This document shows, piece after piece, positions 3,044-46,653 of a stretch of 64,000 nt of DNA. The notes beneath the pieces were generated by a model, which searched no databases, was not told the DNA's origin, and worked only from the letters and a program-made list of their open reading frames with translations. The stretch comes from Candidatus Bandiella woodruffii (GTDB lineage: Bacteria > Pseudomonadota > Alphaproteobacteria > Rickettsiales > Midichloriaceae): positions 434,001 through 498,000 of the forward strand of contig NZ_CP110820.1 of the NCBI RefSeq assembly GCF_034359465.1, written 5' to 3'. The first letter of the stretch is position 1; every line of letters starts with the position of its first letter. The position numbers and the translations under genes were made by a program.

Positions 3044-3875
3044 GGCTCTGTCGCATCTGTAATATGATGCAAAAACTTTCAAATTATTTGTATATTTTTC
3101 CATTAAGCAGTTAGTGAAAGAAATTTATCAAAGTCAGAATTATAATTGTCATTGTCAGCAAGTTGTCCTTTTTTAATCATGTGCAAGAGCTCTATTCCTG
3201 CAATAGTCCTGGCGGCACTTCTAAAGGATTTGAAACCAAGCATCGGTCTAGTTCGTTTCTTTACAAATCTGTGATCGCCTTCTATCCTATTGTTTAGATA
3301 TTTGTTATGCCTAATTTCTATTTGGTCTTCTTTAGATAATGGCTTATTGATCGAATTCAAAGCAGAAGTATTAGAGCCACTTTTATCTATATTAACCTTT
3401 ATAGGCTGGCCACTAGATTTAATTGCTTTCCTGAAAAACGCTTTAGCTGCCCTTTTATCTCTTTTTGCTCTTAGCATAAAATCTATGGTATCCCCGTATT
3501 TATCAACTGCTCTATACAAATAGACCCATTTACCTTTAACCTTGATATATGTCTCGTCCATTCTCCAGCTGCCGTTGACTGGCTTTTTTCTTTTTCTGAA
3601 TCTTCCTTCAAGTATTGGCATAAACTTTACTACCCATCTTTGTAGAGTGGCGTGATCTATGTTGAGTCCTCTCAACCCGCCTATCTCTTCTATCTCTCTG
3701 TAACTTAAAGAATATCTTCCTTTCATATACAGCGATACCATAATGATTTCTGCGCCATATTCATGGTTCTTAAAATACTTCATTAATTTTGGGTCTACTT
3801 TAAACATTATTACCAGCAACTATTTCTTTCAGAATATCAAAAATTCTTATGTGTTTCAACAGATGCGACAGAACC
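3044..3875 (-). mobile_element. IS6-family element, copy 1
   Basis: This is an 832-bp element with inverted ends GGCTCTGTCGCATCTGT and, at the far end, ACAGATGCGACAGAACC. It carries one full transposase gene. Its left flank TAAAAAAT (3036-3043) is not repeated at its own right edge (TGGGTGGT), but reappears at the right edge of the same-orientation copy at 33802-34633. Confidence 0.95.
3103..3819 (-). CDS. IS6-family transposase
   Basis: A single-frame DDE transposase of 238 residues (or 234 from MFKVDP). It has an N-terminal HTH-like region (YSLSYREIEEIGG) and catalytic residues in WRMDETYIKVKG, NIDKSGSN and NRIEGDHR. The translation is identical in all four copies in the window, so this looks functional. 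IS26-like relatives move replicatively and make cointegrates. Confidence 0.95.
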   Translation of the reverse strand: MLVIMFKVDPKLMKYFKNHEYGAEIIMVSLYMKGRYSLSYREIEEIGGLRGLNIDHATLQRWVVKFMPILEGRFRKRKKPVNGSWRMDETYIKVKGKWVYLYRAVDKYGDTIDFMLRAKRDKRAAKAFFRKAIKSSGQPIKVNIDKSGSNTSALNSINKPLSKEDQIEIRHNKYLNNRIEGDHRFVKKRTRPMLGFKSFRSAARTIAGIELLHMIKKGQLADNDNYNSDFDKFLSLTA

Positions 3876-42379: not shown

Positions 42380-43330
42380 TTAATTCAAAATTCTCTTCAT
42401 GGCAGCAACAAGATCTCCTACAGCCTCTGCAGATTTTTGAAAAACAACTTTTTCATCATCATTAAACCCAATTTCTATGATTTTTTCCACACCCTTATTT
42501 CCTATAAACGCAGGAACCCCCATACAAATATCGTTTAGGCCATATTCTCCCTCAAGAAAGATAGAACACGGTATAAGCCGTTTCTCATCATTGAGATAAG
42601 ATTCTGCCATTTCTACCGCCGATGTAGCAGGTGCATAAAACGCAGAACCCGTTTTAAGCAACTTTACAACTTCTTCCCCCCCTTTTCTTGTTCTTTCGAT
42701 AATTGACTCCACTTTTTCAGTCGAGATAACATTCTGTTTTATTAAGTCTTCTAGTGGCACTCCACCAACATTAGTATATCTTATTAATGGCACCATCGTG
42801 TCTCCGTGTCCACCAAGTACAAAAGTCGTGATATCTTGGACTGAAGCGCCTAATTCCCTCGCCAAAAACAGTCTAAACCTTGCTGAATCAAGAACTCCAG
42901 CCATACCAACCACTTTGTGTCTAGAAAATCCAGAGTATCTCAAAAATGCATAGACCATGGCATCCAAAGGATTGGTAACAACAATAACAAAAGCGTTGGA
43001 AGCATATTTTTTAACACCTTCTGCAACAGATTTAGTTACTTCTGCATTGATACTTAGCAGATCATCGCGACTCATCCCTGGTTTTCTCGCCACCCCAGCC
43101 GTGATTATAACCAAGTCAGCCCCCGCTATGTCTTCATAGCTATCCGTACCTATCAATGACAAATCTTTTTTCATTATGGGCAGGCTTTCCTCTATGTCCA
43201 AAGCTTTACCCGCCGCGAATTCTCTTGTTCTATCCAGAATCACAACATCCCCAAGCTCTTTAGAAGCTATGATATATGCCAATGTTCCGCCTATGTTGCC
43301 ACCACCTATTAACGCTATTTTTTTTCTCAT
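42380..43330 (-). CDS. mdh: malate dehydrogenase (NAD-dependent)
   Basis: A 316-residue TCA-cycle enzyme of the LDH-like MDH group. The NAD-binding loop is GGGNIGGT (9-16) and Asp33 in ILDRT selects [13 protein letters not shown] places Arg82 and Arg88 in the mobile substrate loop, which favours malate over lactate (LDH has Gln there). Catalytic Asp148, Arg151 and His175 (GGHGDTMV) are present. It is the cytoplasmic malate-oxaloacetate step. An interspersed repeat separates it from argR upstream. Confidence 0.96.
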
Positions 43331-43410
43331 ACGAGTTTTTGATGTTTTATTTGATATCAGATATTAGACTTATCCTAGTAAAATAACAGTTTATTGTCTA
43401 TCAAAAAAAT

Positions 43411-43568
43411 ATATATACTGCTTCAACTTGAAAAATTGGAAACGTTGTGGAATGAATGCTCAGGCTGCGAGAGGATCCGTTTCACAGCGCGAGTCACGCA
43501 TTCATAAAGCCTTACGGCTTGGCTTTTTATGCCTAATTACTCCAATTCTTAATTCAACTTGAGGTATA
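43411..43568. repeat. interspersed repeat with a variant core
   Basis: The ends resemble the family (TATACTGCTTCAACTTGAAAAATTGG at left, reduced to its first part; CCAATTCTTAATTCAAC and TTGAGGTATAC at right). The core is different and contains a stem-loop AAGCCTTACGGCTT (about 43509-43522) followed by GGCTTTTTATG. It reaches into the last codons of argR and could terminate argR transcription. Confidence 0.6.
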
Positions 43569-44030
43569 CAACGGTTTTAAATAAGAAAATTCAACATAGA
43601 GCATGTTTAACACCGAATCCAAACAGCTTCTGTTCTTTATTATGAGCAGTACCGTATCGTCGCCGGCGATTGTTCCAAGTATCCAATTATCATGGGTGGT
43701 TTTTTGCGAATAGTTAACATATTTCTGATCAAAGAAATATGCCAGACTGCTTGCTTGTCCTGGATGTGTTTGCAGCACTATTAATCCAAATTCAGAAACT
43801 TGCAAGTTTAATATTAATGGGAGGTGAGGTTGGTTGAATCTCATAACTTTATACACACCATCAATTTTGGCAATTTCAAGCTTTTTAAGCCGTCTTGACA
43901 AAGTGGCCTGTGGGATGTTATACCCCCTGCCTGCAAGCATTTGCTGCAAATTGCTCTGTTCAACAATCTTATGATTTTGGACAATGTTAAAAATATGCCC
44001 GTCTAACACATTGGCTTTCATTTTTCGCAT
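43554..44030 (-). CDS. argR: arginine repressor ArgR
   Basis: A 158-residue regulator (155 from the second Met at 44021). The N-terminal winged HTH has LQQMLAGRGYNIPQATLSRRLKKL; the C-terminal hexamerisation and arginine-binding domain has GTIAGDDTVLLI, the family signature. ArgR binds ARG boxes when arginine is present. No arginine biosynthesis gene is in the window; the only adjacent target is the divergent artJ-artQ-artP transporter, so it may control uptake. A perfect palindrome covers its first start codon, consistent with autorepression. The last residues (YTSS) come from an interspersed repeat. Confidence 0.92.
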   Translation of the reverse strand: MRKMKANVLDGHIFNIVQNHKIVEQSNLQQMLAGRGYNIPQATLSRRLKKLEIAKIDGVYKVMRFNQPHLPLILNLQVSEFGLIVLQTHPGQASSLAYFFDQKYVNYSQKTTHDNWILGTIAGDDTVLLIIKNRSCLDSVLNMLYVEFSYLKPLYTSS

Positions 44031-44049
44031 ATATATTCAATATATATGC
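44027..44049. promoter_or_regulatory. candidate ArgR operator between argR and artJ
   Basis: A perfect 23-bp palindrome: GCATATATAT, TCA, ATATATATGC. On either reading it contains a 14-mer close to the ARG-box pattern TGAATwwwwATTCA, with one intact ATTCA half-site. It covers the upstream argR ATG, lies 11 bases below a minus-strand TATAAT (44060-44065) and 18 bases above the artJ -35. Confidence 0.65.
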
Positions 44050-44067
44050 AACCATATCCATTATAGC

Positions 44068-44096
44068 TTGACAATGCAATATTAAATTAATACAAT
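44068..44096 (+). promoter_or_regulatory. sigma-70 promoter for the art operon
   Basis: TTGACA (44068-44073), a 17-base spacer and TACAAT (44091-44096) give a near-consensus promoter. The artJ start is 32 bases downstream with AGGA in between. Confidence 0.75.
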
Positions 44097-44128
44097 TGGT
44101 TAGGTTAAGAAATAAAGTAGGAACCCAT

Positions 44129-44860
44129 ATGAACAAGGTTATTTATAGCGCTTTAATTGCAACGTGCATGTTGTTTTTAGGGTGTAAAGAAGATAAAGTA
44201 CAGAATGTAATTAAATTTGGAACATCTGCAGATTATCCACCATTTGAATATTACGACAGTGGAAAGATTGAAGGTTTCGATATTGAGCTTGCTAGACTAG
44301 TGGCAAAAGAACTAGGTAAAGAAGCAATATTTGAAGACATGCAGTTTACCAGCATATTGGCGGCGCTTCAGAGTGGTTCAATAGATGCGGCTATTTCTAC
44401 CATCACAATCACACAAGAGCGCAAGCAAAGCTTTGATTTTTCAGAAAGTTATCACAAAGAAAATTTAGCTGTGGTTTATTTAAAAGAGCAGCCTATCATT
44501 GAAAAATCGCAATTATCTGAAAAAAAAATCGCTTGTCAGTTAGGAACAATAATGGAGATTTGGCTGAAGAAAAATGTTCCTGCTGCTACAGTTATTGCGG
44601 TAGATAACAATAACCAAGCAATAGAGTCGTTAAAAGCTGGGCATGCTGAAGGCGTATTTATTGATGGCGTGCAAGCAAAAGCTTTTAGCGCAAACAATCC
44701 TGGACTGGCATATCAGATAATTGCTCAAGCTGATGAAGGATATGGGATTGCAGTGAAAAAAGAATCTCCACTTTTAAATGATATAAATACGGCATTGAAG
44801 TCCTTAGCAGATAAAGGCGAACTGCAAAAACTGAAACAAAAATGGTTTAAGGATAATTAA
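44129..44860 (+). CDS. artJ: ABC transporter substrate-binding lipoprotein, arginine/polar amino acid type
   Basis: A 243-residue SBP_bac_3 protein. From the ATG at 44129 it has a lipoprotein signal (VIYSALIATCMLFLGC) with lipobox LFLGC; AGGA lies 8 bases upstream, so this start is preferred to 44096. The fold is marked by FGTSADYPPFEYYDSGKIEG, GFDIELARLVAKELGK, DAAISTITITQERKQSFDFS and GYGIAVKKESPLL. The family binds Arg, His, Lys or Gln; the link to argR suggests arginine. It is first in a tight three-gene operon. Confidence 0.9.
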   Translation: MNKVIYSALIATCMLFLGCKEDKVQNVIKFGTSADYPPFEYYDSGKIEGFDIELARLVAKELGKEAIFEDMQFTSILAALQSGSIDAAISTITITQERKQSFDFSESYHKENLAVVYLKEQPIIEKSQLSEKKIACQLGTIMEIWLKKNVPAATVIAVDNNNQAIESLKAGHAEGVFIDGVQAKAFSANNPGLAYQIIAQADEGYGIAVKKESPLLNDINTALKSLADKGELQKLKQKWFKDN

Positions 44861-45573
44861 TGGAAGCCTTCATTTTACATATACTTCTGCAACTTCAAGA
44901 GTTGTTGGTTCATTTGCAAGCACAATTTGCTAAATATTTCGGGTATGTTGCATTTATCGGAACGGGAATTGCCTTCACCCTAAAATTGCTGATGGGCGGT
45001 CTTTGTTTAGGCATTGTTATCGGACTGGTTCTTTCTATCCTAAGATATAACAAAGTGGGTTGTACGTTCATCAATAGGCTAATATCAATCTTGAGAGGAA
45101 CCCCCCTTATACTCCAATTAAGTTTTGTATATTTCATAGCTCCTGGTCTTATAGGTATGAAGCTTAGCATTATCACAGCTGGTATTCTTACGTTTGGCTT
45201 AAACAGCTCTGCATATGTTGCAGAAATTTTAAGGTCTGGTATTGAGAGTTTGCCCAAAGGCCAATGCGAAGCGGCAAGAACTTTGGAGATACCTGGTTTT
45301 TATATGTGGAAAGATATCATTCTACCCCAGGTTATTAAAAATATTCTGCCAGCAATGGTAAGTGAAGTGATTACACTTCTTAAAGAAACAGCGCTTATAA
45401 CCACAATTGGTGGGGTTGATATAATGCGTACAGCACAGATTTTAGCTGCAGAAAAGTTCACTTATTTTATGCCACTTTGTATTGCGGGGGTTTATTATTA
45501 CAGCCTTGTGTTGCTGGTTGAGTATCTTGGTAAAAAAATAGAAAAAAGCGGTTGGTATGCTCAAAATATCTAA
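44860..45573 (+). CDS. artQ: amino-acid ABC transporter permease (HisM/GlnP type)
   Basis: A 237-residue inner-membrane permease. Five hydrophobic segments and the permease signature with EAARTLEIPGFYMWKDIILPQVIKNILP (the EAA loop that docks the ATPase) are visible, as is the early STLRGTPL-like ILRGTPLILQLSF. Its ATG shares one base with the artJ stop. Only one permease gene is present, so the channel is probably a homodimer, unlike E. coli ArtQM. Confidence 0.93.
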   Translation: MEAFILHILLQLQELLVHLQAQFAKYFGYVAFIGTGIAFTLKLLMGGLCLGIVIGLVLSILRYNKVGCTFINRLISILRGTPLILQLSFVYFIAPGLIGMKLSIITAGILTFGLNSSAYVAEILRSGIESLPKGQCEAARTLEIPGFYMWKDIILPQVIKNILPAMVSEVITLLKETALITTIGGVDIMRTAQILAAEKFTYFMPLCIAGVYYYSLVLLVEYLGKKIEKSGWYAQNI

Positions 45574-46186
45574 TGTTAATAAATTTTTTGGCGATGTGCA
45601 AATACTTGACAATATCAGTCTTTCAATAGAAAAATCCACTATTATTGGCCTTGCAGGACCATCTGGTAGTGGGAAGTCAACTTTGCTTCGGTGTATACAA
45701 AAACTGGAATTGCCAGATTCAGGTACCATAGAGTGCAGTGGTAGAGTTGGGTTTATGTTTCAGGACTTTCAGCTCTTCCCCCATATGACTGTTTTACAAA
45801 ATTTGGTATATGCGCCAAAACTTAAGGATAAAACACATGATCATTATGAAAGAGCCAAAATAATGCTTAGAGATTTGGGTATTGCAGGCAAGGCTAATGA
45901 ATATCCCTCCAGTTTATCCGGTGGTCAAAAACAGCGTGTGGCATTAGCAAGAAGTCTGATGATGCAACCGGAAGTTTTGTTATGCGATGAACCAACGTCA
46001 GGTTTGGATGCTGCAGCCACACTTGATGTCGCATCGCTATTAAAGTCGGTCAGAGAGAAGATGAATGTTACAATGGTGATTGCATCGCACGATTTAGATT
46101 TTTTAGACAAGATATCAGACCAGATTTTTCTTTTAAAAGATGGAAAATTAGTTGATAAAAATGGTAAGTTGGCATTAACGTCTTGA
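45557..46186 (+). CDS. artP: amino-acid ABC transporter ATP-binding protein
   Basis: A 209-residue ATPase, slightly short for the family (about 240). Walker A GPSGSGKS (34-41), Q-loop MFQDFQLFPHMTV, signature LSGGQKQRVALAR, Walker B VLLCDEPTSGLD and switch His in IASHDLDF are all present. It overlaps the permease gene by 17 bases. The shorter length comes from trimmed loops and C-terminus, not from loss of motifs. Confidence 0.94.
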   Translation: MLKISNVNKFFGDVQILDNISLSIEKSTIIGLAGPSGSGKSTLLRCIQKLELPDSGTIECSGRVGFMFQDFQLFPHMTVLQNLVYAPKLKDKTHDHYERAKIMLRDLGIAGKANEYPSSLSGGQKQRVALARSLMMQPEVLLCDEPTSGLDAAATLDVASLLKSVREKMNVTMVIASHDLDFLDKISDQIFLLKDGKLVDKNGKLALTS

Positions 46187-46230: not shown

Positions 46231-46653
46231 ATGTGGGTGTGTGCAATGAAACTTGATGAGACATATGTAAAAGAAATTTTTACTTTATTGGAAAATAGCA
46301 AGAACCAGGAATTTTTTAAGTACGTAGATGACAATGTCATCTGGCAAGTGATGGGGACCCATCCGCTGGCTGGAACATATCATAACAAAGCATCTTTTAT
46401 TACAAGTACGTTTGGACGTTTGGCAACTGTATTACAAGAAGGTGGTGTGATATTAAAAGTTGAAAACCTCCTAATAATTGGTCCTTTCGCCATTGTGGAG
46501 ATGAGGTCTTTATCTCATACAAAATCCGGCAAACCTTTTGATAACACTTATTGTTGGATAGCGAAATTTGACGGAGGGAAGATTGCCAAAGTCAAGGCTT
46601 ATGTGGACTCTGCTCTGGTGGCTGATGTGATCAATTCCAATTCTAATTTATAA
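46231..46653 (+). CDS. SnoaL-like (NTF2-fold) protein
   Basis: A 140-residue protein (135 from the Met at 46246). The pattern is that of the SnoaL/NTF2-like fold: an N-terminal helix (ETYVKEIFTLLENSKNQEFFKYV), DDNVIWQVMGTHPLAGTYHNKASF, and curved strands ending IAKFDGGKIAKVKAYVDSALVADVI. The fold is used for small-molecule enzymes and binding proteins; the role here is unknown. It follows the art operon by 44 bases and ends just before an interspersed repeat. Confidence 0.78.
   Translation: MWVCAMKLDETYVKEIFTLLENSKNQEFFKYVDDNVIWQVMGTHPLAGTYHNKASFITSTFGRLATVLQEGGVILKVENLLIIGPFAIVEMRSLSHTKSGKPFDNTYCWIAKFDGGKIAKVKAYVDSALVADVINSNSNL

Follow-up and report, generated by a model that had tools for sequence, protein, structure and literature searches.

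A putative ArgR-controlled arginine-import cassette in Candidatus Bandiella woodruffii

The window analysed here, a 64,000-nucleotide stretch of the Candidatus Bandiella woodruffii genome (G000:C1:434001-498000; a 1.225-Mb assembly in three contigs, 99.97% complete), carries an arginine repressor gene, argR, that is divergent from three overlapping importer genes on the plus strand and separated from them by a predicted two-box ARG operator. We suggest that these elements form a self-contained arginine-import cassette that would be shut by ArgR together with arginine and opened on starvation, a reading to which we assign a probability of roughly 0.8. In the proposed mechanism, arginine-charged ArgR hexamers would bind the operator (44026-44060) that separates argR from the importer genes, turning down the importer promoter (44068-44096) and probably argR itself, and a shortage of arginine would release ArgR and let import rise.

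Cassette genes, arginine metabolism and substrate

The argR gene (43554..44021, minus strand) lies in an open frame that runs from 44030, and in an alignment with relatives the ATG at 44021 is a better candidate for its start than the one at 44030. Its product matches both Pfam ArgR domains, the N-terminal winged-helix domain (PF01316, 41.2 bits, cut-off 27) and the C-terminal arginine-binding domain (PF02863, 45.5 bits, cut-off 25), and scores below cut-off against the NCBIfam equivalog argR_whole (78.3 bits, cut-off 130.45); it has no PHROGs match. The recognition-helix region and the GTIAGDDT motif align with 16 relatives. This motif of the C-terminal domain, which has a role in arginine binding, is intact in 15 of the 17 aligned ArgR proteins, the window's included, and reads ATIAGDDT in G006 and GTLAGDDT in G473. 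Between mdh and argR, we observed a stretch (43450-43533) with a terminator-like hairpin that is by eye GC-richer than its surroundings, that has no Rfam match, and whose 3' part is single copy within the window.

The plus-strand genes encode an ArtJ-like binding protein of a polar amino-acid ABC importer (44129-44860; PF00497, 135 bits), in which LFLGC near the N terminus resembles a lipobox by eye, a single ArtQ/GlnP-like permease (44860-45573; HEQRo_perm_3TM, over cut-off) whose ATG overlaps the binding-protein stop, and an ArtP/GlnQ-like ATPase (45557-46186) whose gene overlaps that of the permease. Such an adjacent set of SBP_bac_3 binding protein, HEQRo_perm_3TM permease and ATPase is that of an Art/Gln/His-type importer. 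The sequence-only reading had drawn attention to a single-permease transporter beside argR, and the window does have one permease, but this is not a special trait, as we found one permease match in each of 17 cassettes (the window's, 11 fetched within the order, L002 and four outside the order). Binding protein and permease share one open frame in four of the 17 (G074, G079b, G078 and G493). Directly after the importer genes, 46231-46653 encodes a 140-aa protein for which Pfam, NCBIfam and PHROGs gave no hit at 0.001. Elsewhere in the genome, a second, distant binding protein (G000:C1:256048-256773, 30% identity) sits by eye amid housekeeping genes, with no adjoining permease or ATPase frame.

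That no arginine biosynthesis genes were seen in the window had been noted, and the observation extends genome-wide for the genes searched: ArgG, ArgH, ornithine carbamoyltransferase (OTC), ArgJ and arginine deiminase are all absent or below cut-off in this genome (ArgA, ArgB, ArgC, ArgD, ArgE, arginase and arginine decarboxylase lay outside the search). Matches to ArgG (25.2 bits, cut-off 27) and ArgH (65.7 bits, cut-off 279.5) were detected, which we read as other enzymes of the same superfamilies. As controls, 14 known genomes were searched: ArgG, ArgH and OTC matched in all 14 (ArgH and OTC over cut-off in 13), ArgJ matched in 10 and the deiminase in 3. To judge from these gene searches, the bacterium apparently cannot make arginine, and a full arginine pathway with ARG boxes elsewhere was not found in the genes tested and the operator hits examined. 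Across 33 genomes (25 with an ArgR match and eight family members without one), ArgG was over cut-off in nine (above 200 bits in only four), ArgH in seven and OTC in four. ArgH was over cut-off without ArgG over cut-off in G134, G135, G136 and G139, where the ArgH-type lyase may have another role.

One relative combines the cassette with biosynthesis. In G079 (L049 8397-11754, contig 12), the importer genes, divergent from argR, continue in the same orientation into argG, argH and argF, which begin 12 bp past the ATPase gene, in an apparent import-plus-biosynthesis operon, and this direct succession links the cassette with arginine. In that operon, the argH frame ends near position 422 of 455 and may be short. 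No full-length argG was found in the other cassette genomes searched, a set that left out L002 and the four outside the order.

The importer likely carries arginine, as suggested by its linkage to argR. The alternative is that it carries other or broader amino acids (ornithine, lysine, glutamine, histidine or cystine) and that the link to arginine through ArgR is indirect. Binding-protein models lend this some support: ArtJ_Ecoli (123.8 bits, cut-off 510) is outscored by the cystine model (143.2) and the lysine/arginine/ornithine (LAO) model (141.8), both under cut-off, the glutamine-binding GlnH model also matches below cut-off, and among solved structures the closest chain is AncQR. Uptake of ornithine or citrulline would likewise fit G079 with its argF, argG and argH. 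However, argR adjoins the importer in all 17 cassettes, and in G000 none of OTC, ArgG and ArgH, which would convert ornithine or citrulline to arginine, is over cut-off. We regard a different substrate as unlikely.

The operator and the direction of control

We scored pairs of ARG boxes with their spacing fixed at 21 bp, taking as the score the number of mismatches to the consensus TGAAT-N4-ATTCA at the ten positions of each box. In the window, box A (CGCATATATATTCA, 44026-44039, plus strand) differs from the consensus at two of ten positions and box B (TGCAACCATATCCA, 44047-44060, plus strand), 21 bp after box A and 7 bp before the -35, at three. The pair total of five mismatches was reached in only 3 of 500 shuffles of the intergenic segment, and the four half-site centres are 9, 12 and 9 bp apart, as in the standard pair. 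The stretch 44026-44060 is thus a predicted operator of two near-consensus boxes, 21 bp apart at a promoter, with box B being weak. The importer promoter itself (44068-44096, plus strand) is of the sigma-70 type, TTGACA-17-TACAAT, with 11 of 12 consensus positions, and is the only plus-strand promoter-like site in 43330-44200; the scan of this region returned three sites on both strands compared to 3.9 expected from shuffles, and found no promoter for argR.

Two-box pairs were also detected in relatives. Five of seven argR-linked relatives have best pairs with two or three mismatches in total (two in L046, L048 and L049; three in L002 and L044), each reached in 0 of 500 shuffles, with L046 and L048 being near-identical members of one genus. 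L042 has seven mismatches at the fixed spacing, with its boxes 22 bp apart, and L051 has nine at the fixed 21-bp spacing. As a control, we scored the regions preceding 11 binding-protein genes whose fetched flanks contain no argR, a set in which G124 has argR elsewhere and L064, L070 and L072 have no permease or ATPase match, and these gave six to nine mismatches. The four argR-linked loci outside the order had totals of 5, 8, 6 and 6, overlapping this unlinked range; three of them, L105 (8), L106 (6) and L107 (6), were, like L042 and L051, no better than unlinked loci. In nine of ten related cassettes, a box with no more than two mismatches occupies the slot 7-8 bp before the -35, compared to three mismatches in the window's own (the count covers 10 of 16 related cassettes, with the -35 picked by eye, and leaves out L050-L055, which have other arrangements). 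A slot box is present in three of the four cassettes outside the order, and none was found in this slot in G473 (L106). Diverged cassettes carry exact TGCAT-N4-ATGCA boxes in L050, L052 and L055 (equalled in 0, 0 and 1 of 300 shuffles) and one with a single mismatch in L054 (10 of 300), and those of L053 and L051 were no better than chance (115 and 60 of 300 shuffles).

Further boxes downstream of the -35 were found in five of ten relatives and are missing in the window. Because of this absence, and because the window's operator lies upstream of the -35, the sign of control is the weakest step of the proposed mechanism. ArgR with arginine may instead activate the importer from upstream, such that import would rise when arginine is plentiful and serves as food. 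The operator does lie immediately ahead of the -35, a common position for activators, and ArgR is able to repress or activate (PMC4766238). We nonetheless consider activation distinctly improbable: no arginine deiminase was found in the genome (arginase and arginine decarboxylase being outside the search), protein bound at the downstream boxes of the five relatives would more likely hinder polymerase, and E. coli artPIQM is repressed by ArgR (PMC6640053). Repression by arginine-charged ArgR is the more likely reading.

As an independent test, we built a sequence-only profile of 41 positions from six relatives, with the window left out. Its best of 10 hits in the genome was 44029-44062 (14.8 bits, E 0.044, with 150 of 756 candidates scored), and within the window, with filters off, the operator scored 14.8 bits versus 7.1 for the next site. 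Best hits in five comparison genomes ranged from 12.3 to 15.8 bits, and four of these genomes (G119, G126, G136 and G139) showed no ArgR; since the best hit in G126, at 15.8 bits, exceeds the window site, score alone is no proof of an operator. With a modest E-value of 0.044 and similar or higher scores in genomes without a found ArgR, it is the rank and position of the window site that carry weight. Beyond it, we looked at the next three of the 10 profile hits; with 150 of 756 candidates scored, a weak site could be missed. We rejected C1:184614 (13.2 bits), at the overlap of two holA- and map-like genes, and C1:729342 (12.6 bits), inside a 636-aa frame that is rpoD-like by eye; C1:767930 (12.1 bits) is intergenic, 60 nt before a frame that is aroK-like by eye, and may be a weak ArgR site. 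A genome count of TGAAT-N4-ATTCA with at most one mismatch gave 83 places per strand versus 45 in a reversed-pattern control, which is uninformative as operator evidence, many being one repeated 14-mer (TGAAGGAAGATTCA); among the matches listed, three exact-match places lie inside open frames of 381, 106 and 87 aa. The genome had been proposed as the place to look for further ARG boxes, and no other convincing ArgR operator emerged among the hits examined from the consensus count and from the profile with 150 of 756 candidates scored. The 14-mer, also present as TGAATCTTCCTTCA, recurs genome-wide, including window positions 3597, 8624, 32112 and 34355, and probably belongs to an insertion sequence. 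The window also contains, in eight copies, a near-palindrome beginning GCCAWCAACATGTT (3991, 6551, 7782, 19771, 20764, 31412, 35006 and 49795), perhaps derived from repeated transposase genes.

A 23-bp palindrome (GCATATATATTCAATATATATGC, 44027-44049), with 11-bp arms and perfect save for its central base, had been pointed out in the sequence-only reading, and it is indeed present between argR and the importer genes and rare in shuffles. It is the only palindrome in the window with arms of at least 11 bp and a centre of 0-1 nt; one of such size arose once in 60 dinucleotide shuffles of the window and in 14 of 20,000 shuffles of 44016-44128. Its placement over the upstream argR ATG holds in that the ATG at 44030 lies inside it, but with the favoured start at 44021 the palindrome is just upstream of the gene. 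It spans box A except the first base plus the first three bases of box B, covering the first two half-sites of the operator and extending into the third. The ARG-box-like core noted within it belongs to the two-box pair, but single boxes with two mismatches are common by chance (41 in the window versus a mean of 90 in its shuffles; 117 of 300 shuffles equalled the intergenic segment's best single box), so the core alone is no evidence, and pair, place and conservation are what count. The palindrome was not seen in the 13 related loci compared, whereas ARG boxes recur in relatives, and we rejected it as the operator unit: what is conserved is the boxes beneath it, and the lack of palindrome conservation, which the sequence-only reading had named as refuting its proposal, holds for the palindrome as such but not for these boxes. 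Among the relatives, L049 carries a different perfect palindrome close to its -10, and in L055 an imperfect inverted repeat overlies the locus's own boxes. That the palindrome is a chance AT-rich repeat or another protein's site, and no ArgR operator is present, would accord with its absence from relatives, the frequency of single boxes and the equally high profile score in a genome without a found ArgR, but is very improbable given that the window-excluded profile ranks the overlapping two-box site first in G000 and that position and 21-bp spacing agree with relatives.

Spread and descent of the cassette

ArgR-domain matches were detected in 28 of 343 genomes of the order, 24 of them over cut-off. 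We fetched 25 of the 30 places listed, setting apart the own genome and omitting four sub-cut-off places, and by tblastn with the window's proteins (1e-3) found the importer beside argR in 11 and not in 14, 12 of the latter in family f24. Among 385 genomes of the class, there were seven ArgR matches outside the own genome. Of the six followed up for neighbouring genes (all but G359), four, all outside the order, had the whole cassette, and G448 and G460 did not. The same four-gene cassette is thus found in several families and outside the order. A second cassette type, with ArgR 29-37% identical, was present in G134, G135, G078 and G111, and G079 has it as an additional copy.

As a check on vertical inheritance in the family, a tree constrained to hold the window, G134 and G135 as one clade was rejected (p-AU 0.00017), although the window UvrA is 65% identical to that of G134/G135 and 62% to that of G068. 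Seven of 14 inner branches are unresolved, and old duplication and loss of cassettes is possible because G079 carries both types. These comparisons suggest that the cassette has been retained or handed on as a whole. We put forward as a tentative idea, with the odds somewhat against it, that argR, operator and importer form a portable cassette moved among intracellular Alphaproteobacteria in which the ArgR regulon has shrunk to a single operator, and in which, in G079, a single operon under the same operator unites import with the last three biosynthetic steps.

Relation to known ArgR-importer systems

The arrangement of argR with an importer is already known from other intracellular bacteria, and our finding is confirmatory rather than surprising. 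In Chlamydia, ArgR and artJ-glnPQ were reportedly the subject of work by Schaumburg and Tan in 2006. New here are the spread of the cassette across families and outside the order, set against family lines, and the argG-argH-argF operon of G079; we found no account of Midichloriaceae ArgR in the open-licence literature, nor a description there of the cassette spread as seen here, and the accessible portion of PMC5343134 has no word beginning 'Rickettsi'. The window offers a clean case of a regulator left with apparently one target after a pathway was lost or was never present, with an operator that is traceable across relatives. It had been proposed that ArgR was rewired to control import only, and the operator between argR and importer, the absence of the biosynthesis genes searched and the lack of another convincing operator among the hits examined are consistent with import-only control. 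'Rewired' is too strong, because argR beside or controlling arginine-importer genes has been published for Wolbachia, Legionella, Coxiella and Chlamydia and because the cassette looks kept or passed on whole.

Chlamydia, of another phylum, has no arginine biosynthesis genes, an ArgR-controlled importer in some species and a need for arginine for growth (PMC2720952), and shares with the window's genome both the lack of such genes, as far as searched, and an ABC importer with ArgR. Wolbachia of supergroup A has argR co-located with arginine ABC transporter genes, like Legionella, and the authors infer that expression occurs at low arginine and that the cluster is closely tied to Legionella (PMC3616963, PMC9894559). 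As in the window, argR adjoins arginine importer genes in an intracellular alphaproteobacterium, but the published Wolbachia accounts give argR and three transporter genes (artM, artQ and artP in PMC9894559) with no binding protein detected, whereas the cassette described here has a divergent argR, a binding protein, one permease, an ATPase and a described operator. In Coxiella, argR directly precedes artPIQ (PMC4766238). Legionella, an arginine auxotroph that has ArgR (PMC12341379), carries argR together with importer genes (PMC3616963); its ArgR regulon is described as complex and includes secretion-system genes (PMC12341379, PMC3616963), in contrast to the one convincing operator found here among the hits examined. 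E. coli ArgR works at artJ, artP and hisJ via two 18-bp ARG boxes 3 bp apart, which overlap the -35 at artJ and artP and lie slightly more upstream at hisJ (PMC6640053). Two 18-bp ARG boxes with a 3-bp gap at an importer promoter are thus common to E. coli artJ and artPIQM and the window, but the window's boxes end 7 bp before the -35, and E. coli ArgR also controls arginine biosynthesis and serves an importer with two permeases, ArtQ and ArtM.
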